A stretch of DNA of 64,000 bases, from assembly GCF_026241095.1 (NCBI RefSeq), contig NZ_JAPFGB010000003.1, forward strand, positions 124,001 through 188,000, given 5' to 3'. Below the pieces are notes generated by a model, which saw only the letters and a program-made list of their open reading frames with translations, had not been told where the DNA came from and made no database searches. Positions within the stretch are counted from its first letter, which is position 1, and every line of letters begins with the position of its first letter. Shown piece after piece: positions 22,190-35,287 of the stretch. Both the position numbers and the translations under genes were made by a program. This stretch comes from Saccharopolyspora sp. NFXS83. GTDB taxonomy: Bacteria; Actinomycetota; Actinomycetes; Mycobacteriales; Pseudonocardiaceae.

Positions 22190-25180
22190 TTAAAGAAAAC
22201 CGACATGTTGCAGGGGTGCTCGCATGTCGGTGACTGTGATCGTGTCTGGGTGATCGAGGGCGAGATATTCGATTTCCTGTGTGTTCGCGTTCCATTGATC
22301 GAGGATGAAGAGGGCCAGTTGACCGCAGGTTGGGCAGTGCTGGGTAAGTAGGAATGGGCGCAGGAGTCGGTAGCGTCCGTAGGAGTCGGCGATGTAAGGG
22401 CTACCGGTTTCCAGAATCTGTGTTGTGTGCTCGTCAGTGGGGGAGACGATGTTGTGGTCGCCCATGAGTTCGCGGTAGGTGATTTGCGAGGTGTTGATGA
22501 AGCTGTCCCAGTGGCAGGCGTCGATATGGCGGAGAGGGTAGTCGACGAGCCATTCGACGCCGCTGAGAATGGTTTTCAGGTGCCTTCGGGAATTTCGAAC
22601 GGCGTCGTTGATTTCGTGGGCTGCTGGTCCTCGGCCGTGGGATTTATAGTTGCGTCGTTCGTACAATTCGCGGACCGCGCTCGCCATGTCGGCGTCGGTA
22701 AAGCAGCGGAACCGCGTCAGTGGCGAGTCACTGGGAATGTCCTGCTCAGTGGCAGCTGTGGCGACCTCGCGGAGGATGTTTAGCCAGATTCCGAAGGTCA
22801 TCTGGGCCATGTTCCCCTGGCGGACACGGCGACGTAGGGCATGGACGCGGTGGAGGGAAATTTGCGCTTCGCGGGCAAAGACAAGGCCGAGGACCGCGCA
22901 GTACGCGATAGCGGCCTCGGCGCACTCCAGAACCAGTTTGTAACCAGCCTCATCGGGGCGTGCGGCCTGTACCTCGCGCCAGCGTCGTGCGATCGGGTAC
23001 GGCAGTGTGGCCCGTAGCCGCGAACCGACCTCGTTGACTGCACTAGCTGCTTCGCGTCGCTGCCGGGTGAGTCGGCCCGACTCGATCATATGGGCGCGTG
23101 CAGTTGTGGGGTCGGGCCACTGGAAGAAGCTGTGGACAGCGTCGTCGGCGTCGCGTTTCCAGGTTCCGAAACTTTCGGCTGCGCTGGTCAGTTCGGTAAT
23201 GGCGTTGAGTGTCGCACTATCTGGCTTTGGGATGCGCTGGCGTTTCAGGATTTCTGGGGGGATAATTGCGAGGTTGTCTCTGCAGGTGATCCCGCCGAGC
23301 AGGTAATTGCTGCAGATATACCGCAGATAGAAGAATTCTTCGCTTGGGGACAACGGCTTGAGGGGGCGAAGAACAAGTAAGGAATCTGACGGTGTTCTTT
23401 GTTGTTCTTCCGATGAAATGATGATGATAGGCACCCGGTCGCCTGACCAAATTCGAGCGATTACGAAGTCGCCGGGCTGCAGCAAATCTTGCTTGCGAAC
23501 GCGCTCCGGTGCGGAGGTGCGAGGGAAGGCGTAAGTGTTGGACGCTTGGATGTGGAGGTCGTACGCCGTCAGCGCATACGCCGTGCACTCATCCTGGCTG
23601 TCGCTTCCGATGGGCAGGGTTTGCCGAGTGCGCTCGTGGACGCTGAATACTTCCTCGAACGGGATACCGTCCATCGCGCCGGTCATATTCGCGTCCTGTG
23701 GGCCGTCATCCGAAGCAGGGGCCAGGCTGACCGGTGTCCTGGCATGTACTCGCCGCTCGGTTGACAGTGGATCTCTGTCGGAGCGAACAAGCAGGATTGG
23801 TGAAAATTGCGGGAAAAGATCAGACATGAACTGTGCAGTAGTGGCTATGAGCTGCAGGTCTAGCGCTGACACTACCTTGCTAAGAACGTGCCAGGTGGAC
23901 GGGGTGAACTGTGCGAGTTGCCCATCGACGATGATGATGCCACGCCGCTGCCCGGTTTTTTCATCTTTCGCTTGTGCTAGATTCGCTGCGAGAAATCCGG
24001 TGACGACGTATGAGAGCAACTGAGTCAGGTCATCATCACCAGGGGAGAGCCCGCTTCGCCGTGACAGCGGGAGATGGCGAGCCGAAGCGGATGCGGAAGG
24101 GGATCGGTTGGGGGCGCAGACGTCGATTGCGATGTCTGCAGCCTCGAATACTCCCTGGAGTAACAGCTGGGAGGCGCCGTGCGTGGTGTGGATGTCTGTC
24201 GCTCTATCGAGTAGAGCAGCTAGTCGTTCGGTGCGTTGGTCCTCGTTGTGGTATTCGCAGGAAATCTGAAAGAGCTCCTTGCCTCCGAGTCCATAAGGAA
24301 GACCGTCAGGCAGGCGAGAGAGCCGCTGAGCCTCCTTTAAGGAGGCCAGTATACCTTCAATCATGTAGCCGAGGAGGTTGACCACCGATTGCTTCGTGGT
24401 GAGTGGGACGCCGTTCGTGGCCTCGGGCTCAAGAAGTGTGTACTGCAACTTCGCGTAGCGGTCCAGGGTGTCGGCTAGATGCGTTAAGCGCTCATCGGGG
24501 ATGGTTTCGTGAAGCACGAAACCAATGAACTCTTTTTCGGTCAAATAGGGCAGCTTTCGGTTGCCAAGGGCGTGATCACCCATCCATTGGAACCAACGCG
24601 CGTTGAACCCGTGACTGTGTAGATGCTCCCGCCAGTCCTTGCGTGAACGTACCCAGGTCAGGTCTGCGTCGTCGAGAGACTGAAGCGTTGCGCCTAGCCG
24701 TGCACGCAACGACGAGACGTCTTCAGACGGCTCGCCATGGTCGAACGGCATAGATTCAAGGCCAAGCGCCCGACGTGGCTGAAACGAGTACCATGCCTCC
24801 ATTAGGCCCTCAGTGCCTGACGAGTCCACCTGAGCACACACGATCCATCCAGTGATCAGTCGTGCACCGGTCTGTGGGTGCCGCCATTCCAGTACGATGT
24901 GACCCGTGCCCTGCTCAGCGCCAGCTCGCGCGACACGAGCGGCCGGCTGCTGTGACTGCCCGAGAACCGTCAGAATGAGCCACAGCAGCGTCGATTTTCC
25001 CGCACCGTTCTCGCCGGCGATCACCGTTGAAAGGGCTGGCCTCGCCTCCTGATCGCTACTCGCCGCATGACCAGGGACGCGCGTCTCGGACCACGTTTCC
25101 CGGAGATCGACAATTACATCGTCAAAACGAGCCTCGACAGGCCCAACTGACCGCAGACGTACCCGCATCAAGTCGTACAC
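22190..25180 (-). CDS. ABC/SMC-type ATPase - HsdS-like TRD - HEPN - CPxC fusion
   Basis: 996 residues with four recognisable parts. (1) ATPase: Walker A GENGAGKS (56-63), signature-like LSPGDDDL (379-385), Walker B strand GIIIVDGQ (Asp419), where Gly replaces the usual catalytic Glu. (2) ~528-655: a type I specificity-subunit-like target-recognition domain (LQPGDFVIARIWSG, LLVLRPLKPLSPSEEFFYLR, IIPPEILKRQRIPKP). (3) ~745-885: helical HEPN-type region with RNYKSH (Arg843, His848), the Rx4H RNase motif. (4) HCPTCG (948-953), a zinc-knuckle-like pair near the end. Known relatives in logic are PrrC and RloC, ATPase-gated anticodon nucleases. Start GTG 25180; ATG 25168 is also possible. Confidence 0.85.
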   Translation of the reverse strand: MYDLMRVRLRSVGPVEARFDDVIVDLRETWSETRVPGHAASSDQEARPALSTVIAGENGAGKSTLLWLILTVLGQSQQPAARVARAGAEQGTGHIVLEWRHPQTGARLITGWIVCAQVDSSGTEGLMEAWYSFQPRRALGLESMPFDHGEPSEDVSSLRARLGATLQSLDDADLTWVRSRKDWREHLHSHGFNARWFQWMGDHALGNRKLPYLTEKEFIGFVLHETIPDERLTHLADTLDRYAKLQYTLLEPEATNGVPLTTKQSVVNLLGYMIEGILASLKEAQRLSRLPDGLPYGLGGKELFQISCEYHNEDQRTERLAALLDRATDIHTTHGASQLLLQGVFEAADIAIDVCAPNRSPSASASARHLPLSRRSGLSPGDDDLTQLLSYVVTGFLAANLAQAKDEKTGQRRGIIIVDGQLAQFTPSTWHVLSKVVSALDLQLIATTAQFMSDLFPQFSPILLVRSDRDPLSTERRVHARTPVSLAPASDDGPQDANMTGAMDGIPFEEVFSVHERTRQTLPIGSDSQDECTAYALTAYDLHIQASNTYAFPRTSAPERVRKQDLLQPGDFVIARIWSGDRVPIIIISSEEQQRTPSDSLLVLRPLKPLSPSEEFFYLRYICSNYLLGGITCRDNLAIIPPEILKRQRIPKPDSATLNAITELTSAAESFGTWKRDADDAVHSFFQWPDPTTARAHMIESGRLTRQRREAASAVNEVGSRLRATLPYPIARRWREVQAARPDEAGYKLVLECAEAAIAYCAVLGLVFAREAQISLHRVHALRRRVRQGNMAQMTFGIWLNILREVATAATEQDIPSDSPLTRFRCFTDADMASAVRELYERRNYKSHGRGPAAHEINDAVRNSRRHLKTILSGVEWLVDYPLRHIDACHWDSFINTSQITYRELMGDHNIVSPTDEHTTQILETGSPYIADSYGRYRLLRPFLLTQHCPTCGQLALFILDQWNANTQEIEYLALDHPDTITVTDMRAPLQHVGFL

Positions 25181-25337: not shown

Positions 25338-26399
25338 TTAGCCGACCGCTCTTTCCGGGTCGGTGGTGTCGCAGACCGTAGCGCGGTCGTGGTCTTTGAG
25401 GACGCGGGCCAGTGTGCGGGCGCGGTCGGAGCCTATCTTCAGGTGGCGGCGCAAGGTGTCGGCGGACGCGGTCCGCCCGTGTCTATGCCAGTGTTGCCGG
25501 TTGACTGCGAAAGCTCGCTGTAGCAACGGATCCACCACGCGAGTATCTACCGGCCGGTCTTGTCCGGGCTCGGTGCTCTGTTCATTGGTGATGGCAGCGG
25601 ACTCCGCATCGGCCAGGTCCGTGAAAGGAGATCGGTCTGTTGCGGCCAGTGAGCTGACGTCCTCCTGCAATGGCCTTGTGCTGTCGTCTCTGGGCGGCTT
25701 GTGTTCGGTGTGGCTCACCAGTTTGTGCATGAGCGTGGTGATCTCTTGCCGGTTCATGCCGGTGTCGAGCAGCCATGCCCATTCTGCGGGGACTTTCTTT
25801 CTCCACTGTGGTCCGTGGTGAGATCGTAGAATCGTTCTGGCATGCCGGATGCGGATTTCGTCGTTGAGTGCGTCGTGGTAGTTGGTGATGTGCCAGAGCA
25901 CCATGCGTCGCCACAGCCAGAAGGTTCGCCAGGGTTCGAGGAACCAGCGCGCGAGCGGGATGCGGTCGCGCAGGGTGCCGGTGCGGGCGCCGATGCGGCG
26001 CAGCAGCACGGTGCGTGCGGCTTCGATCATGGCCAACAGCATCAGCGGTGCCGCCGTGTGCAGGCCGACGGCGACGGGATCCGGCCATCCTGCGGTTGCG
26101 TTGGCGGCGACGGTCCCGAGGCTCAGTAGCCGGACGAGTTGGCGCAGCCATCCGATAGGGCAGGTGATCCAGGTCAGCACGAGATCGACGAGAACGACGC
26201 CGAGCAGGCCTCCGTCGAGTCCGAGTGGAACGAGCTCCGGCAAGGGAAGGTGTCTGTCAGCCGCGACCGCAGCGAGCGTCCGATACGAGCCTGCTGCCCC
26301 GTAGGCGGCCAGTGCCACCCCGGCGACCAGGGAGCCCCCGCATGCCGCGATCTGTCCTCGGGACAACTTTGGTGCTGCTGGGCGGAAGGGATCCGTCAT
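25338..26399 (-). CDS. DUF2637/SpdB-like membrane protein of a mobile element
   Basis: 353 residues. The N-terminal half has four hydrophobic helices (around 18-40, 58-82, 92-112 and 115-135), the DUF2637 pattern seen in SpdB-type proteins of actinomycete conjugative plasmids and AICEs, where they help intramycelial spread. The C-terminal half is cytoplasmic, with a helix-turn-helix-like end (TASADTLRRHLKIGSDRART). ATG 26399 overlaps the integrase stop (ATGA), so it is the third gene of the AbrB-integrase-DUF2637 operon. Confidence 0.8.
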   Translation of the reverse strand: MTDPFRPAAPKLSRGQIAACGGSLVAGVALAAYGAAGSYRTLAAVAADRHLPLPELVPLGLDGGLLGVVLVDLVLTWITCPIGWLRQLVRLLSLGTVAANATAGWPDPVAVGLHTAAPLMLLAMIEAARTVLLRRIGARTGTLRDRIPLARWFLEPWRTFWLWRRMVLWHITNYHDALNDEIRIRHARTILRSHHGPQWRKKVPAEWAWLLDTGMNRQEITTLMHKLVSHTEHKPPRDDSTRPLQEDVSSLAATDRSPFTDLADAESAAITNEQSTEPGQDRPVDTRVVDPLLQRAFAVNRQHWHRHGRTASADTLRRHLKIGSDRARTLARVLKDHDRATVCDTTDPERAVG

Positions 26400-27457
26400 C
26401 GTGCACCTCCGTGCCGTGGACTGCGGGCGAGGGGGTGGGGTTCGCCGGTGAGTGCCGCGAGGGCGGCGGCGACTTCATCGAGGTTGGCTCGGACGTAGGT
26501 CGTGGTCGTGCCGGTATCCCCGCCGCTGTCGGCGTGGCCTGCGTAGGCTCGTGCGACGGCGTAGCCGAAGTGGCGTTCGACCCAGGTCAGGGTGGTGTGG
26601 CGCAGCCAGTGGGTGCTGATCTGCTGGGTGGCGACCCATGGCAGGTGGGTTCCGATCCTTTTCCAGAGGTGGTCGTAGCGTCGGGATGTGATCGGTTTGC
26701 CGGAGCGGTAGCGCAGCAACCGTCCGCCTTCGAGTGCGGCACCTCGTTGCTCGGCGTGTGCTTGCAGGTGGCGCATCAATGTGGGCGAGACGGGCTGCCA
26801 GCGGACCGTGTCGCCCTTTTCGTGCAGCGCGATCAAGCACTGTTGCGTGTCGAGATCTTGCGGGCGTAGCGCGAGGACGCCGCCGCGGCGGCAGGCGGTT
26901 TCGGTGTGCAGTCGCAGCAGCAGTGTGTCCAGTGCGGGATCGTTTCCGGTGGTGGCGGCCACCTGGTTGATCTCTTCCAGGCCGGTGTCGGGCAGGCCGC
27001 GGCGGGTGCTGGGCAGCCGGCGCGGTTTCGGGACTCGGCGGGCCGGGTTGTCTGATTCGGCGATCAGATCGTCGGCGACGGCGTGGTTGTAGAGGCAGCG
27101 CATCGCGGCGATGAGGTGTTCGGCCGCGCTGCGGCCTCCTCGGGCGTTGCGGCGAGCGACCACGTGTTCCCGGATGTGCTCGGCGAGCTGCTTGATCTCC
27201 AATGGCGTGGGTTCGTCAAGCCGCCGATCGCCCCACTGCTGTGCGATGCGCTTCCAATACGACGAATACACCCGGCGGGTGCCGTGAGATACCGCGGCTG
27301 AGACCTGCGGGATGTAGTCGGCGAAGGTCGGCGCCACCGAACGGTTCTGCTGGCCGGTGCTGAGCAGGTCCGCGGGTGCAACGCCCATTCTTTCCAGCAC
27401 AAGACGCGCGGCTTCGAGTTCCGCGGCACCCGGGCGTTGTTCCGAACCGGTGGTCAT
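26396..27457 (-). CDS. tyrosine recombinase/integrase
   Basis: 353 residues. A SAM-like N-terminal DNA-binding domain (~45-135) precedes the catalytic domain. The tetrad is visible: Arg in ACRRGG (~190), His283 and Arg286 in HWLRHT, His308 in AGHAD, and the nucleophile Tyr321 in TTTTYVRA. It overlaps both neighbours by ATGA. It lies ~0.6 kb from the att-like repeat at 28043-28080, the usual layout of an integrase beside its attachment site, and so it may have mobilised the island to its left. Confidence 0.9.
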   Translation of the reverse strand: MTTGSEQRPGAAELEAARLVLERMGVAPADLLSTGQQNRSVAPTFADYIPQVSAAVSHGTRRVYSSYWKRIAQQWGDRRLDEPTPLEIKQLAEHIREHVVARRNARGGRSAAEHLIAAMRCLYNHAVADDLIAESDNPARRVPKPRRLPSTRRGLPDTGLEEINQVAATTGNDPALDTLLLRLHTETACRRGGVLALRPQDLDTQQCLIALHEKGDTVRWQPVSPTLMRHLQAHAEQRGAALEGGRLLRYRSGKPITSRRYDHLWKRIGTHLPWVATQQISTHWLRHTTLTWVERHFGYAVARAYAGHADSGGDTGTTTTYVRANLDEVAAALAALTGEPHPLARSPRHGGAR

Positions 27458-28252: not shown

Positions 28253-28951
28253 GTGAGCGACGGTAAGCAATCTCGGCGGCTACGCGGTTTCCGCGCACTC
28301 ACCCCTGAGCCGGTCTGGGCCGCCCTCGTCCAGCACGGTGTCCGCAAACACCACCACACCGGTGAGCGGTTACTGGGCCAGGGCGAGCCTGGGGGGTGGC
28401 TACTGGTGTGCCTGTCCGGTCGGCTGAAAGTTGTCTACACCGAACCCGACGGTCGCGAAGTGCTACTAGCCGTCCGAGGCCCCGGCGATCTGGTGGGTGA
28501 ATTTTCCGGAAGAGATGGACAGTCGCGTTCGGCGACGGTGCAGGCCATCGAACCTGGGATTACGTCAAAGCTGGCCGATCATCGCTTCAGCGAGCTCGTC
28601 CAGCGCTTCAGCGTGACCGAACAGCTCACCGCCTACATCATGGGCAAGATGCGGGAAAGCGCGTCGCACGCCTGGCGACTAGCGCATCACAGCGCTGCGG
28701 CACGGCTTGTAGAACTCATCGAGACGCTCCTCAACGTCGCGGGTCCTGACCATCCCCACCCGAACATCATTGCGATGTCCCAGGAAGAGCTGGCATCAGC
28801 GTTGGGGTTGGCTCGTTCGGCGATCACCCCGGTCCTCGCCACGTGGAAGTCCGCAGGACTTATCCGCACAGCGCGGGGCAAGTTGCAGGTGCTCGACTTC
28901 GCCGCCATCAAAATGCAGGTTCTGTCCAGTACTGGACAGAACCAGCAATAA
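28253..28951 (+). CDS. Crp/Fnr-type cNMP-binding transcriptional regulator
   Basis: 232 residues from GTG 28253 (no strong ribosome site; the frame is open further upstream). N-terminal cyclic-nucleotide-binding beta-roll: GERLLGQGEPGGWLLVCLSG and the phosphate-binding cassette region PGDLVGEFSGRDGQSRSATV. It keeps Gly-Glu-like GEFSG and an Arg-Ser-Ala-Thr (RSATV) match to the cAMP-pocket RxA(T/S). A dimer helix and a C-terminal winged HTH follow (MSQEELASALGLARSAITPV). It lies 50 nt before a class III cyclase-like gene, which could make its ligand. Proposed: transcription factor controlling the module that follows. Confidence 0.88.
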   Translation: MSDGKQSRRLRGFRALTPEPVWAALVQHGVRKHHHTGERLLGQGEPGGWLLVCLSGRLKVVYTEPDGREVLLAVRGPGDLVGEFSGRDGQSRSATVQAIEPGITSKLADHRFSELVQRFSVTEQLTAYIMGKMRESASHAWRLAHHSAAARLVELIETLLNVAGPDHPHPNIIAMSQEELASALGLARSAITPVLATWKSAGLIRTARGKLQVLDFAAIKMQVLSSTGQNQQ

Positions 28952-29001
28952 ACTTCGGGGATTCTTTGTTCCGCCAAGCATCTGAGCCAGAAAGGCCACT
29001 G

Positions 29002-29970
29002 GTGGATCAAAAAGACACACACAGACTCGGTCACTACACGGGGATTCTCGCGATCGACGTACGCCGTTTTAGCAGTCACAACGACGTCAAACAGCGGAAG
29101 ATCGTGGATCTGCTGCCCACGGTCCTTAGTGAATCGTCCGAACGAGCAGGGATCGCAGGATTGATGCGGGACAACGTCTTCCGCGCGTTCCGTGGAGATG
29201 GCTACCTCATCGGGTTCAACCCGGATCTAATGGTTGCCGTGGTGGACAAGTTTTTTGACTCTTTGCAGGCTGAGCTCCGCCGCCGCTCCGCAGAACTCCG
29301 ATCAGCTGCAATCGAGCTCCGCATCCGAGCTAGCCTGCACCTCGGCCCGGTCCAGTCGTTCAACATTCTCGTGTCCGATTCGCCATCCGGCACCGTCATG
29401 GTGGAGACCGGACGGATGGTTGACGCGGAGCCGGTGCGAGCGTTGCTCGATAACTCGGACCCGAAGGTCACGCTGGTCGCTGCGGTGCTGTCCGAAGAGG
29501 TCATGAAGCAGGTCGTCGAATCAGGTCGGACCGCACGGCAGCCCAGCGAATTCGTGCCGGCGCCCCTGCGCGTTGAAGCGAAGGACTACGCAGGGAAGGG
29601 GTACTTGAGAGTTCCCGTACCCTCCGGAGACTTGCTCACGTCCGGCTTGTTGCACGGACAGCCCGAACCGTCCATCGAGGCTGCTGACCAGTCGGTAGCA
29701 TCCAGTGGTCCGGCATCCAACTCGTTCACCGGGTACGCCGACAAGGTCATTCAGGCCCGTGATGTAGGCGGCGGAATCCACGATCATTCCGCGTACGCCG
29801 ACGGCGGTATCGCTGTGCACGGCAACGGAAACGTGACCGCCGGAGGCGACATCGACAAGTCGGACAACAAGCAAGAGTTCTCCGGTCAATTCAACACTCA
29901 GGGGGATTCCAACTTCGGCCCATCCAGCGGTCGCCGCATCCGATCGAACCACGACCAGGCGGAACTCTGA
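29002..29970 (+). CDS. class III nucleotide-cyclase-like protein with amyloid-signalling-type tail
   Basis: 322 residues. The first ~190 follow the class III cyclase plan: metal Asp19 in GILAIDVRRFSS, the second metal Asp66 in FRGDGYLIGF, then IRASLHLGPV and a long helix. Both metal-binding Asp are kept, so activity is plausible; bases that fix purine or pyrimidine choice cannot be called. The tail (~244-322) is Gly/Asn-rich: VIQARDVGGGIHDHS (249-263) resembles the QARDxxGG(V/I)H motif of actinobacterial amyloid signalling sequences, and HGNGNVTAGGDIDKS (273-287) recurs in the next protein. GTG 29002 has AAAGG 7 nt upstream. Operon with the Crp-type gene. Pycsar cyclases (PycC) are the known comparison. 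Confidence 0.78.
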   Translation: MDQKDTHRLGHYTGILAIDVRRFSSHNDVKQRKIVDLLPTVLSESSERAGIAGLMRDNVFRAFRGDGYLIGFNPDLMVAVVDKFFDSLQAELRRRSAELRSAAIELRIRASLHLGPVQSFNILVSDSPSGTVMVETGRMVDAEPVRALLDNSDPKVTLVAAVLSEEVMKQVVESGRTARQPSEFVPAPLRVEAKDYAGKGYLRVPVPSGDLLTSGLLHGQPEPSIEAADQSVASSGPASNSFTGYADKVIQARDVGGGIHDHSAYADGGIAVHGNGNVTAGGDIDKSDNKQEFSGQFNTQGDSNFGPSSGRRIRSNHDQAEL

Positions 29971-29976
29971 GGTACC

Positions 29977-32199
29977 ATGAACCCTTACGATATCGATGGC
30001 TCCGATTTGCCCGAACCTCCGCACACGCCGGATCCACCGATCGTTCCAGTGCCCCCAGCGGACCGAGAAACGCCGCAGAATGATTCGGTCGCCGATCTAC
30101 CAGAGGAGAACCCGTCGCCCGAAAAAGAGGTACCAGCACAGCGTGCTGTAGTCGCGGTGGCCGGGCGCCACAATGAGACAGCAGGACGAGACATCGACGG
30201 ATCCTGGTTCAAGGATGCCGATCTGCGCGGCGCCGTCATCGCGACTACACCGGACATCGTGGAGCGCCTGGCGCGATCGGGTATAGAGAAGCGAAGTGGC
30301 CGCGGTATTCAAGACACAGAGGCGCTGCAACGCCTGGCAAGCATGTACGTAGCGCCAGCAGGCTTGCTCGGGCGAACGCCGGAAGGCAAGCCCGACACGG
30401 CGTACCAGATCCTAAGCGAGCGCAGAGTTCTTTTGCTCACTGCACCTGGCGACAACTGTGGTCAATTTTCCGCGAGTCTCCGACTTGGTCAAGAGTTGCG
30501 GACGGAGAACCCTGAACTCAGCGTCTGTGAAGAGCTTATGGACCCGGACCTTGGGTTGGTCCCGGAGGGGTTCTTGGTCGAGAATGAACCCGCAACGCTC
30601 ATAATCGACCTCCGTGGATTCGGCGAGCAAGATCTGCAAGTCGTCCATCGCACCCTGGTCGGTTTCAGTGCGCAGCTAGCGCGCTATGAGAGCTATCTGA
30701 TACTGATCCTTCCTCCTGGGCAAGAGCGGGATTTCGATGATCGCTATCCAAACAGGATGCACTTGTTGGAGAAGCCTTCGTCCATAGATGTCTTCGCATG
30801 TCAGGTTGGTCGAAATGATTCTTCTGTGATTATCGAAGACACGGAAACAGCTCGCCAGCTCGAAAGCATGTGGCCGCCAAAGGTCAAATTCATCGCAGAA
30901 ATCGTACGGGAAAGTATTGACCAGGGCGAGGCGCCGCGACAGGCGTTCCAGGAGGCACTGCAACGGGAATGCGCCAGCCAACCTTCGCAGCTCCGAATCG
31001 ATATCAGGGAAAAGCAGCTGGCAGGCGACACCGAATGGCTCGCATTGCTGATCGCTGCCGCTCTGCTCGAAGGCGCTCCACTCATGCATATCGTCGATGC
31101 GTCGGACGAGTTCCTGTCATACAGTGAAGTTCGGCCGTCGGAAGATCTAGCACCACTGCTACGTCCAAGCCCTTACACTCGACTACTTCGCCTCGCGGAG
31201 GAGCCGCAGAAACGTTTCGACATCGACACGCGAGAACTTCAGCCGCACGGATTCGCCAAGCATGTGTTGCGACACTTTTGGCTGGAACACCCCGATGTTC
31301 GTGAACCCTTGGTTGAGTGGCTGGGCGAAATTCCCAGAGTCATGGCTGGACTCGAACGCCAGAACCTGGAGCAAATCGCTGACCGGGTTGCCGATCTTGC
31401 CTCGGAAAGCAACGCCAAGATCGCTATCAAGCTGGCGGCTCACTGGGCTAAGACCAAGGTGGGCGACGATTCCGGTGGACTCCGGACCTCGACCAGCCCA
31501 AGTGCCCGATACCGGCGGTCCGTCGCTGTGCGCCTTCTGACAACGACCGCGACTGACGCGACGATTGGCAGACACGTGCGTCACCAGCTCTGGGAGTGGT
31601 CACGAGGCAGCGACGCCGATTTGCAACTGCTGACTGCGGAGGTCTGTGCTGGATTCGGGACGTCCTTCCCTCGGAATGCGCTCACCCGGCTCAAGCACCT
31701 GGCGAACTCTGGAAACACGGACGTGCGAAACTCAGTGGTGAACGCCGTCCAGCAGATCGGTATCGACCTCGGCACGTCTAGGCTCCTCCGGTACTTGGCG
31801 GAGTGGTTCGATCGCGCCTCGGCAGCTCGATTGAGTGTGCTCTCGGAGAGCGTCAGGAACGTGCTAGGGGCGCGGTCCGACGACGTCGAGGCTGGTTCGG
31901 CCGAGTCGTTTTGGCGCCGCGCACTGGACGCCATGCCACCGGACGATCTGCGCCCGCTCGTTAAAAGCTGGGTGAGCACTGCGGCCGAACTTGACTCCGA
32001 CCAACGTGCTGGCATGGTGGAACCGCTCGTGCAGGCCACCGATCACAATTCTGCACGGATCGCACAAATTTGGTATGCCAGCAGACTTGGCCCCACGTCT
32101 CTTGATCCGAGTTCGTACGAGAACGATCCGGTCACCGAGGTGATACATCAGCTTTGGACACGGCTTGACGAAGTCGACCCCATTTGGGCGCGGGAGTGA
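29977..32199 (+). CDS. large HEAT-like protein with degenerate P-loop and matching amyloid-type motif
   Basis: 740 residues. The N-terminal ~55 are Pro-rich and disordered. AGRHNETAGRDIDGS (62-76) mirrors the tail motif of the cyclase-like protein. A nucleotide-binding-like core follows: VLLLTAPGDNCGQFSASL (151-168) sits where a P-loop should be but lacks the GK(S/T) lysine, and ATLIIDLRG (~207-214) sits at Walker B. From ~330 to the end the protein is helical (HEAT/ARM-like; LKHLANSGNTDVRNSVVNAV). ATG 29977 has GAGG 5 nt upstream and lies 6 nt after the previous stop. Reading: a STAND-like partner that has lost ATP binding, recruited to the cyclase through motif templating. Function inferred only. 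Confidence 0.7.
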   Translation: MNPYDIDGSDLPEPPHTPDPPIVPVPPADRETPQNDSVADLPEENPSPEKEVPAQRAVVAVAGRHNETAGRDIDGSWFKDADLRGAVIATTPDIVERLARSGIEKRSGRGIQDTEALQRLASMYVAPAGLLGRTPEGKPDTAYQILSERRVLLLTAPGDNCGQFSASLRLGQELRTENPELSVCEELMDPDLGLVPEGFLVENEPATLIIDLRGFGEQDLQVVHRTLVGFSAQLARYESYLILILPPGQERDFDDRYPNRMHLLEKPSSIDVFACQVGRNDSSVIIEDTETARQLESMWPPKVKFIAEIVRESIDQGEAPRQAFQEALQRECASQPSQLRIDIREKQLAGDTEWLALLIAAALLEGAPLMHIVDASDEFLSYSEVRPSEDLAPLLRPSPYTRLLRLAEEPQKRFDIDTRELQPHGFAKHVLRHFWLEHPDVREPLVEWLGEIPRVMAGLERQNLEQIADRVADLASESNAKIAIKLAAHWAKTKVGDDSGGLRTSTSPSARYRRSVAVRLLTTTATDATIGRHVRHQLWEWSRGSDADLQLLTAEVCAGFGTSFPRNALTRLKHLANSGNTDVRNSVVNAVQQIGIDLGTSRLLRYLAEWFDRASAARLSVLSESVRNVLGARSDDVEAGSAESFWRRALDAMPPDDLRPLVKSWVSTAAELDSDQRAGMVEPLVQATDHNSARIAQIWYASRLGPTSLDPSSYENDPVTEVIHQLWTRLDEVDPIWARE

Positions 32200-32975
32200 A
32201 AGCGTTGTCAGAATTCGGGCGGCGTCAACTGTGGCACCGCCAGTACGCACGAGGAATCCGTGAGCAGATGGCGGGCAGGGGCGATTTGACCGGATGGCCG
32301 CACGACAGTCGCTCTGATACGTCTCAGGCGCTGCCCAGCGCGGACGGCCACATGCACTTCCATGCGAAGATCTCGTTCTGGACATGGTGGGACGGCACCG
32401 AGCCATCCCCTCCGGCATTACTGGACATCGCCAAGGCTGGCATCATTCGTCGTGCCGAAAAGGTCAGCGTCCGGCGCAGTATCACGGACTGTGATCGACT
32501 ACGAACGGAGTTGAACACCGAGCTTATGAACTGGGAGGCGGTCGCCGAGACGCAGGTGCACGTGCGTGGCCACTGTACGTCGGTCGATGCAGACCCGGAT
32601 CTCATCGCAGCCGTGGATGAGCATGAGCAAGCTATCCGGCGTCACGTCGTCCAGTCCTGGTATGAAGAACGACGCAAGCAGCAGCAAAACCAGATGTGCT
32701 CACTGATCCTCGACCCACTGCGGGCAACCGCGTGGTGGTTGCTCGACAACCAGGACAAGCCTGAGGAAGCGGTGACCATCGCGCAGAATTTCCAGGAGCT
32801 GCGCAACATTCTGAAGCCCGCCGAACAAACAGATACTCCCGGAAAACTCGTCGATGAGCTCCTGATCCCGGCAGACGAAGCCGTGCGCCATCGCGTGATC
32901 CAGTTCGTCCGAAACTGCTTCCAGGAGCTCCATCGGGACGATCTGGCCGCTCGGCTCGACCCGGTTGACGACTGA
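32196..32975 (+). CDS. unknown protein closing the cNMP module
   Basis: 259 residues from GTG 32196, which overlaps the previous stop (GTGA). The middle (MHFHAKISFWTWW, VSVRRSITDCDRLRTELN, AETQVHVRGHCTSVD) alternates strands and helices in a way that recalls SPFH/band-7 modules, followed by charged helices (WYEERRKQQQNQ). No transmembrane segment or catalytic motif is evident. Tight coupling to the HEAT-like gene suggests a joint function. Confidence 0.6.
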   Translation: MKALSEFGRRQLWHRQYARGIREQMAGRGDLTGWPHDSRSDTSQALPSADGHMHFHAKISFWTWWDGTEPSPPALLDIAKAGIIRRAEKVSVRRSITDCDRLRTELNTELMNWEAVAETQVHVRGHCTSVDADPDLIAAVDEHEQAIRRHVVQSWYEERRKQQQNQMCSLILDPLRATAWWLLDNQDKPEEAVTIAQNFQELRNILKPAEQTDTPGKLVDELLIPADEAVRHRVIQFVRNCFQELHRDDLAARLDPVDD

Positions 32976-33832: not shown

Positions 33833-35287
33833 GTGGAAAAATTCCCGGAACCAAACGGAGAAAAATCTTCGCCGACGCGGAAAGCGAAGTCTGGGCGGAC
33901 GCCGAAGCCCCGCCGAAGGTCTGCGATAGTAGAAGAAACTGAGCGATTGGAACACGAACACGAACAAATTAAAAAACAGGTTGAAATACTAAAAGTGCAA
34001 GCTAGCGACCTCGGATTGAACCTTTCCGCCCGCAGCCAGCCAGGGCGCGGTCTGCCGGGGCACGGCTTATCTTTGCATCTTTCAGATGGCGCACGTGCAA
34101 CCGAAGTCCCGCTCAGGCTGGAAAAATCAAGTAGCGTGTCACAATTCATAGATGAATTATCCGCAGACCTGTCACTTATTCCGGGATACGCTGGTCTAAT
34201 TCAAATCAAAAAGGGGTACATTGAGGTAATAATTGAAGACATCGGATCATCGCACACGTCTCAGAGATATGGGTATTCCTATACCTTGCCGAGGCAGATT
34301 TCCGGAGATGTGGGTCTTCGTAAACGAGCCAGCAGCGGAGTGACGGCGAAAGCGTCGCAACTTACTGTCGAAATTTCCTCACCAAGTGCACTGTTTGATG
34401 GGCTCGGGTCAAGGCTCTGTCCGCCCCCTATGGACTATTTCGCGTACGACGATTACCTAACCCTAAAGATTTCCGGGGTCAAGATTTGTGATTTGCCACA
34501 TGGCGTGAAACTACTCGAGGAGATCGGAAATTCATTTTCCATCGACCTCGACGTCCGCTTCGGTGGAGGCTTTTCGATATCGCCAAGATTCGACTGGGAA
34601 AAGTTCTGGGATCGCAGAAATGAGGGCAGTGCTTCAAGGGTAGCTGGCAGCCTAATTGATCAGCCACTAAATCTGAGCATGAACAAATACGATGAACTGG
34701 CCACGAAGTACTACTGGCACGGCAGGAGGTCTGAGTCCGTCCCTTTGGCTGCGTTTCTAGCATACTACCAAGTATTGGAGTATTACTTCCAGCGTTACGT
34801 GCGTGAAGATGCCATCAAGCTCACTCGAATTAACCTAAAAAGTCCATCGTTTATGGTCGAAAATGACGACAACATTGCTCGGCTAATTCAGATATTCGAG
34901 GATGAGGTTCGAGCGAAGAGTAGTGAGCAGAATAAGTTGACCGCGACAATGCTAAACTGCGTCGATCCGGAACTTTTGGCTGGCTTTATTTCGTGCGATT
35001 CCATCCTTGCGCGTCATCTGGGCAATAAGGACCGACTTCCAGGGGTCCCCACTGTTCCTTCTAAGCTGTCTGGTGAGCAGCTCGTTGAGCGCGTCTCCGA
35101 ACGCATCTACCGGCTACGGTGTCAAATCGTTCACGCCAAGGGTGATGCACGCGATGGTAAAGTGGTGCTACTGGCTCCGGGCACTCCGGAAGCAGTCGGA
35201 GTTCGTGAGGATGTCAAGTTAGTATCTCATGTAGCTCAGGCCGTCATGATAGCGAGTTCCACTTCAATAGCTTTGGATGATCGCTGA
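33833..35287 (+). CDS. HEPN-domain protein with coiled-coil N-terminus
   Basis: 484 residues. The N-terminal ~60 are basic, then a short coiled coil (EETERLEHEHEQIKKQVEIL). The C-terminal ~200 fit a HEPN bundle: the typical PLAAFLAYYQVLEYYFQRYV helix and the motif RCQIVHAKGD, where Arg-x4-His matches the HEPN RNase signature (Cys replaces the usual polar Asn). Many proteins of this shape act in abortive infection. The codon use is clearly more AT-rich than in neighbours (many AAA, ATT, AAT codons), which points to recent transfer. GTG 33833 has AAGGGG ~9 nt upstream. It stands alone. Confidence 0.75.
   Translation: MEKFPEPNGEKSSPTRKAKSGRTPKPRRRSAIVEETERLEHEHEQIKKQVEILKVQASDLGLNLSARSQPGRGLPGHGLSLHLSDGARATEVPLRLEKSSSVSQFIDELSADLSLIPGYAGLIQIKKGYIEVIIEDIGSSHTSQRYGYSYTLPRQISGDVGLRKRASSGVTAKASQLTVEISSPSALFDGLGSRLCPPPMDYFAYDDYLTLKISGVKICDLPHGVKLLEEIGNSFSIDLDVRFGGGFSISPRFDWEKFWDRRNEGSASRVAGSLIDQPLNLSMNKYDELATKYYWHGRRSESVPLAAFLAYYQVLEYYFQRYVREDAIKLTRINLKSPSFMVENDDNIARLIQIFEDEVRAKSSEQNKLTATMLNCVDPELLAGFISCDSILARHLGNKDRLPGVPTVPSKLSGEQLVERVSERIYRLRCQIVHAKGDARDGKVVLLAPGTPEAVGVREDVKLVSHVAQAVMIASSTSIALDDR

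Follow-up and report, generated by a model that had tools for sequence, protein, structure and literature searches.

Matched motifs in a Crp–cyclase–STAND-like operon of Saccharopolyspora and its relatives suggest a possible receptor-gated cyclic-nucleotide circuit

What would switch on a nucleotide cyclase that is encoded between a Crp-type regulator and a large STAND-like protein? This question is raised by a locus of Saccharopolyspora sp. NFXS83, located in a stretch of 64,000 nt (hereafter, the window; contig NZ_JAPFGB010000003.1, positions 124,001 to 188,000) from a genome of 6.9 Mb, in which the open reading frame (ORF) of the regulator is followed by those of a class III nucleotidyl-cyclase-like protein, a partner protein, and a small fourth protein (Table 1). 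An earlier note on this DNA had proposed a cyclic nucleotide monophosphate (cNMP) module made of the Crp regulator, the cyclase, and the STAND-like partner. Synteny, metal-binding Asp residues, and Crp cassette stood up in the present analysis, whereas the proposal had missed a motif pair between the cyclase tail and the partner, a palindrome at the crp/cyclase junction, and a link to NLR-type signalling. We consider it rather probable that the locus encodes a receptor-gated cyclic-nucleotide circuit.

Conservation of the gene order, the cyclase core and the Crp regulator

The four ORFs described in the earlier note were found in place (ORF calling here relied on a simple script that is known to misplace some starts), with 50 bp between the end of crp and the cyclase gene, 6 nt between the latter and the partner gene, and an overlap of the partner and fourth genes. 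The arrangement also recurs outside the strain, so the objection that synteny might be lacking fails. In 18 close loci that were retrieved through their cyclase (L034–L051), the partner was present in 18/18, and Crp and the small fourth gene in 17/18 each. The fourth gene had been counted as a member of the module, which holds for this close clade, where almost all its homologues were found. In 80 loci chosen from the matches in the window's family (not a random draw), the cyclase ORF was present in all 80, and a same-strand Crp gene adjoined it in 69 of them (66 under a tighter limit). In addition, 32 held-out loci from 29 genomes, taken from the better matches in three other families of the class, showed an adjacent Crp gene in 27 cases and an adjacent STAND-family gene in 23, the nine without an adjacent STAND match being L168, L169, L175, L178, L181, L182, L185, L190, and L191.

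Of 200 genomes from the window's family, 109 contained a member of the cyclase family (E 0.001), and across the class 74 of 394 genomes did so (E 1e-15). Named carriers include Saccharopolyspora, Actinopolyspora, Kibdelosporangium, Saccharomonospora, Saccharothrix, and Halosaccharopolyspora, with Actinopolymorpha and Candidatus Stackebrandtia as more distant ones. At 14 named-organism loci, at least six of which are the same places as loci in other counts, the partner gene was always present, and Crp and the palindrome were each seen in 12. No cyclase relative was found in the phage collection at E 1e-5. Two distant relatives turned up in the plasmid collection, on large replicons of Streptomyces and Embleya, where Crp and STAND matches were likewise present; the tail alignment at the plasmid locus L215 was not convincing as a motif match.

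The cyclase-like protein has the fold of a class III catalytic domain, its structure model having been examined by VIA-align, and it keeps both metal-binding Asp residues, as claimed before (D19 in 80/80 loci and D66 in 79/80), together with Arg138 (79/80) and Lys194 (78/80). No useful Pfam, NCBIfam, or PADLOC match was obtained for this protein (P0002), and none of 29 cyclase relatives matched the Pfam cyclase models at E 0.1. Beyond the core, residues 227–322 showed a predicted local distance difference test score (pLDDT) mostly below 50.

The regulator matched Pfam cNMP_binding and HTH_Crp_2 above the cut-off, and residues G82, E83, R92, and A94, positions that form part of the phosphate-binding cassette in cNMP-binding Crp proteins, were kept in 67/67 Crp sequences (66 loci and the window). 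With both domains present and the cassette intact, it appears from its sequence to belong to the cNMP-binding Crp family. At the crp/cyclase junction lies a perfect palindrome, whose arms and spacer (TGTCC-N6-GGACA) have what we take to be the geometry of a Crp site. This core is present as a single copy in the window and as five in the genome, two of them at the genome's two crp/cyclase junctions, with four copies for the reversed-pattern control. It was found at 34 of the 69 Crp-cyclase junctions by strict scan, and additionally at L035 and L036, where the end of the Crp ORF is misplaced; the rest of these 69 loci, each of 11–12 kb, held one further copy (L086). The last crp codons contain the palindrome in the window and in most close-clade loci, whereas its position at L043, L049, L051, and those distant loci that possess it is beyond the stop codon, and therefore coding constraint alone is not a sufficient explanation. 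Some remote loci (L101, L102, L103, L114) carry an alternative junction palindrome, ACCGC-N6-GCGGT.

The other genomic copies of the core (in contigs C11, C34, and C45) were not accepted as Crp targets, the control giving 4 against 5. The one at C45:204196 (L220, near 1501) overlaps the start of a gene, presumably MazG-like, and may be due to chance.

Motifs shared by the cyclase tail, the partner and NLR-type proteins

The poorly structured tail of the cyclase carries two motifs, A and B, the second of which resembles a segment near the N-terminus of the partner. The pairing was scored in 23 of the 80 loci, those present in both the cyclase and the partner alignments, with column-based cuts. 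Matched pairs scored a mean of 65.8 vs. 36.1 for mismatched ones, and none of 100,000 permutations was as high; for the 13 close pairs, 7 of 100,000 were as high, and for the 10 distant pairs, none. A held-out set of 23 pairs from the other families gave similar values (66.7 matched vs. 38.2 mismatched, 0/100,000 permutations as high), with a z of at least 3.8 over shuffles in 18 of the 23; the five rows without a motif match were all kept in this count. In 20 of the 23 loci of the first set, the best local alignment between the whole proteins was that of cyclase tail and partner N-terminus, with L043 aligning on the linker outside the motif. The window's own motif B pair scored 48 (z 4.9 over shuffles), rank 7 of 23. 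The motifs differ among loci, as in L055 (tail GPVNTGTQGNVQTGSGQQFN, partner GPVNTGSQGNVQTGSGQQIN), L056 (tail GGTGDINGNGNITLTG, partner GGTGDINGDNNVNLTG), and L188 (tail GDQIGGASHRADGHGIVNAPGRDQ, partner GDDIGGASHRATDGGTVNAAGRDQ), and in L183 the sequence GDGAQSAFGNTV is present in both tail and partner.

As for the partner itself, nSTAND3 matches were found in 10 of 30 members of its family (E 0.01 or less) and HEAT_2 matches in 8 of 30. The window's protein (P0003) showed no nSTAND3 match, and no NB-ARC or NACHT match at E 1.

Motif A points to other receptors of the same genome. A 27-residue query recovered itself plus six weak matches (E 0.027 to 2.6), four of them near the N-terminus of proteins matching NB-ARC/STAND domains (L202, L203, L204, L206), with NB-ARC above the Pfam cut-off in L203 and L204 and below it in L202 and L206. 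The N-terminal motifs of these receptors include RNELSGSAKEVIQAGRVSGGIHFH and RNVFTGTARNVVQVGKVHGDVHFH; in the other two matches, L205 and L207, no NB-ARC or STAND domain was seen. When motif A was compared with each of the four, 0, 0, 0, and 1 of 2000 shuffles scored as high, and the reverse search with the L202 segment recovered the cyclase tail (E 0.019). Similar motifs, recognized by eye and unscored, occur in an NB-ARC/TPR gene one gene away from the cyclase at L054 and in another directly following the Crp-cyclase pair at L102. Furthermore, fusion proteins occur in the cyclase family, with NB-ARC and TPR domains in L112 and L197 and with EAD1 in L193–L195, twice together with TIR; L196, L198, and L199 resemble the fusion L197, the one covered by the Pfam scan. 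RHIM-like cyclase tails were found at L054, L061, L079, L080, L084, and L092, with a nearby NB-ARC-type P-loop gene, searched by pattern, only at L054.

Published amyloid peptides were compared with 113 cyclase tails, 76 partner heads, and 108 control cores. The fungal sigma peptide exceeded a z of 3 in 12 tails, 4 heads, and no control core, and the archaeal amyloid-signalling peptide in 0, 1, and 0, respectively, suggesting a weak resemblance to sigma only.

Table 1. Features of the locus and their positions in the window (aa, amino acids).
Feature	Position	Strand	Description
Crp-type regulator, 232 aa	28253..28951	+	cNMP-binding domain, winged helix-turn-helix; phosphate-binding cassette G82-E83 ... 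R92-S93-A94
Perfect 26-bp palindrome, GGTTCTGTCCAGTACTGGACAGAACC	28918..28943		Candidate Crp operator; core TGTCC-N6-GGACA at 28923-28938, crp/cyclase junction
Class III nucleotidyl-cyclase-like protein, 322 aa	29002..29970	+	Core at about residues 9-215; D19, D66, R107, R109, R138, K194 conserved
Cyclase tail motif A, residues 238-262, ASNSFTGYADKVIQARDVGGGIHDH	29713..29787	+	Like the N-terminal motif of four same-genome NB-ARC/STAND-type proteins
Cyclase tail motif B, residues 270-295, IAVHGNGNVTAGGDIDKSDNKQEFSG	29809..29886	+	Counterpart of the partner's N-terminal motif; match modest in the window itself
Partner, 740 aa	29977..32199	+	Family similar to an nSTAND3 NTPase with HEAT repeats; degenerate Walker A in close clade
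Partner N-terminal motif, residues 59-85, VAVAGRHNETAGRDIDGSWFKDADLRG	30151..30231	+	Resembles cyclase motif B
Small fourth protein, 259-263 aa	32184..32975	+	Probable start GTG at 32196

The fourth protein (P0004) had no useful Pfam, NCBIfam, or PADLOC match, and its family showed no PDB match at E 1 and only scattered, weak Pfam ones; a likeness to Band-7 proteins is not asserted for it. The flanking genes, with an integrase, a DUF2637 gene, and a JetC-like gene upstream and a DzbB/MauJ-like gene downstream, do not look like part of the four-gene unit, since none of 40 loci yielded a homologue of P0005, the protein encoded downstream. The phage-type integrase and the DUF2637 gene (window 25338-27457, minus strand) stand beside the module and are possibly part of an integrative element. 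The first ~245 residues of a 996-aa protein (22190-25180, minus strand) match the JetC (Wadjet) model with an E of 4e-51, the protein being shorter than JetC, and a 484-aa protein (33833-35287, plus strand) has a C-terminal match to DzbB (PADLOC, 4e-11) and to MauJ (Pfam, below the cut-off).

Other Crp-cyclase pairs bear different tails. At L053 (contig C29), the window's genome holds a second pair, in which the tail is RHIM-like and a separate palindrome sits at the junction; this pair is followed by the gene of a membrane-type protein with a VGHSQGS motif that is also present in L066, L070, and L071. The tails of L181, L182, and L185, which have no STAND neighbour, end in a short FEA-containing sequence, and several of the remote pairs L097–L116 share a tail like STVVQAGRDA...DVIQNFDRNDQRGSHFGP and have a different palindrome.

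A possible circuit and its alternatives

In the receptor-gated circuit that we favour, the STAND/HEAT-like protein would sense a trigger, and its N-terminal motif would nucleate joint assembly with the corresponding motif at the cyclase C-terminus, possibly in the cross-beta form known from NLR signalosomes of bacteria and fungi. Because class III cyclases act as dimers, such clustering would switch the enzyme on. The predicted product, a cyclic nucleotide, would bind the adjacent Crp protein, and the latter would act at the palindrome before the cyclase-partner operon, amplifying or resetting the response according to the sign of its effect. In the window's genome, the receptors with a motif A-like segment could also feed into the circuit, which may serve defence or a stress response. 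We advance more tentatively, as a serious possibility, its stronger form, an amyloid-gated nucleotide cyclase: NLR-like receptor recognition would lead to prion-like templating of the cyclase tail, and this to a cyclic nucleotide and Crp-dependent transcription. It would concern a whole operon class across actinomycetes, with a dozen or so motif types (judged by eye), and several receptors per cell may share one cyclase.

A number of observations weigh against the circuit. The Walker A position of P0003 reads APGDNCGQ, without the intact Lys (GSGR occurs in many distant relatives), and this absence of a P-loop makes switching driven by nucleoside triphosphates (NTPs) doubtful in this clade. 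Five of the 23 held-out pairs (L161, L164, L171, L174, L176) had no motif match, none of them above z 1.8; in L161, L164, L171, and L176, not in L174, the called ORFs overlap by 304–493 bp, and their starts are therefore probably wrong. The cyclase's own partner was the single best scorer in 11/23 loci of the first set and 12/23 of the held-out one; perfect specificity of the pairing was neither shown nor expected, as relatives share motif types. In the window, the two whole proteins align best at a place other than the motif pair (55 vs. 48), so this pair rests on the evidence from the family. The junction palindrome is absent from 33 of the 69 junctions, and the BASS3 peptide exceeded a z of 3 in 2/113 tails, 0/76 heads, and 4/108 control cores, thus without excess. 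In addition, the usual transition-state Asn, four residues before Arg138, is absent in 73 of the 80 loci and present in 7, and the usual base-selective Lys position varies across them (both positions assigned by eye). Finally, many relatives have a Crp-cyclase pair without a STAND gene in view (most of L097–L116, L181, L182, L185).

These solitary pairs would suit an ordinary cyclase-Crp pair acting in physiology or development, in which the tail does no more than anchor the enzyme on a scaffold protein, without templating or any immune-like role, as would the lack of any PADLOC match for the cyclase, the partner, and the fourth protein. We regard this explanation as possible though unlikely, since the locus-specific matched motif pairs, of many sequence types, and the NB-ARC-TPR, EAD1, and TIR fusions point to NLR-type signalling.

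It is still less probable that the cyclase-like protein is a pseudoenzyme, used as an NTP-binding sensor or scaffold while Crp answers a cyclic nucleotide made elsewhere. The missing Asn and the variable Lys position would be in agreement with it, and PMC7159879 reports a lack of catalytic activity for several cyclase domains that occur in fusion with vWA components. However, the metal Asp pair, Arg138, and Lys194 are near-invariant over the 80 loci, the Crp cassette was kept without exception, and Ma1120, an adenylyl cyclase of known structure, seemingly also has Ala at the usual Asn position, according to our reading of the alignment. A Pycsar-like anti-phage system, with a phage cue activating the cyclase directly, Crp as sole effector, and the STAND-like protein as an accessory, is very improbable. 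A dedicated cyclase does adjoin a cNMP-binding protein, but the partner is kept in all the close loci and bears the matching motif, the cyclase has no PycC match, and Pfam showed no transmembrane (TM) or TIR effector encoded by the module.

Relation to known signalling systems

BASS amyloid signalosomes, according to what Dyrka et al. (2020) reportedly described, consist of an NLR plus a Bell-domain effector. In several papers on NLR/effector amyloid pairs (PMC7889193, PMC8086366, PMC12261475, PMC9815663), the motif lies at the effector C-terminus and its cognate at the receptor N-terminus, encoded by neighbouring genes of filamentous bacteria, and some pairs were detected by local alignment of adjacent proteins. 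Bell domains, the chief effectors of bacterial amyloid-motif signalosomes, are thought to be membrane-targeting, with CHAT and TIR exceptions (PMC7889193). The operon described here is like BASS in its matched motifs, in their location at effector C-terminus and receptor N-terminus, in the adjacency of the genes, and in its occurrence in filamentous bacteria, a likeness that holds for the family and is modest for the window's pair. In contrast, the effector has a class III cyclase fold, and not Bell, CHAT, or TIR, the output is predicted to be a second messenger that has a Crp of its own, and the partner is usually nSTAND3/HEAT-like, an NB-ARC protein taking this place in L054 and L102. Lacking a Bell domain, the module is not classed here as a BASS member, the comparison having covered one BASS3 peptide. 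The word "cyclase" has no occurrence in the main text of the four papers cited above.

NTP-dependent conflict systems, as far as the available parts of PMC7159879 and PMC8195603 describe them, also contain cNMP cyclases as signalling domains, inactive STAND modules, an adaptor shared by two components, and, at some loci, linked CRP-like regulators; the EAD1 fusions of the present cyclase family are a further likeness. Those systems are MoxR-vWA ternary ones (VMAP, iSTAND, iSTAND2, TERNS3) with globular EADs, whereas here a compact Crp-cyclase-STAND operon carries short disordered motifs, and neither this operon nor its motifs were found in the same parts of these sources.

The resemblance to Pycsar proposed in the earlier note holds in that a dedicated class III-type cyclase adjoins a cNMP-binding protein, and it is an analogy only. 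The receptor here is a DNA-binding Crp instead, P0002 has no PADLOC PycC match at E 1 or less, and the PycTIR and PycC matches of the Crp protein centre on its cNMP-binding domain.

In agreement with the earlier statement that no system with this gene set had been described, no published description of the four-gene arrangement was found in the open literature searched. What is new here is that the effector role falls to a nucleotide cyclase, accompanied by a dedicated Crp and a candidate operator, and there is a real chance that the module represents a new class of signalosome. If so, a cyclase as the effector of an amyloid signalosome would extend such signalling to a diffusible second messenger and to transcription as an output, provide a testable prediction for the cyclase-Crp gene pairs of actinomycetes, and connect NLR-type amyloid signalling to cyclic-nucleotide immunity, two fields so far handled separately.

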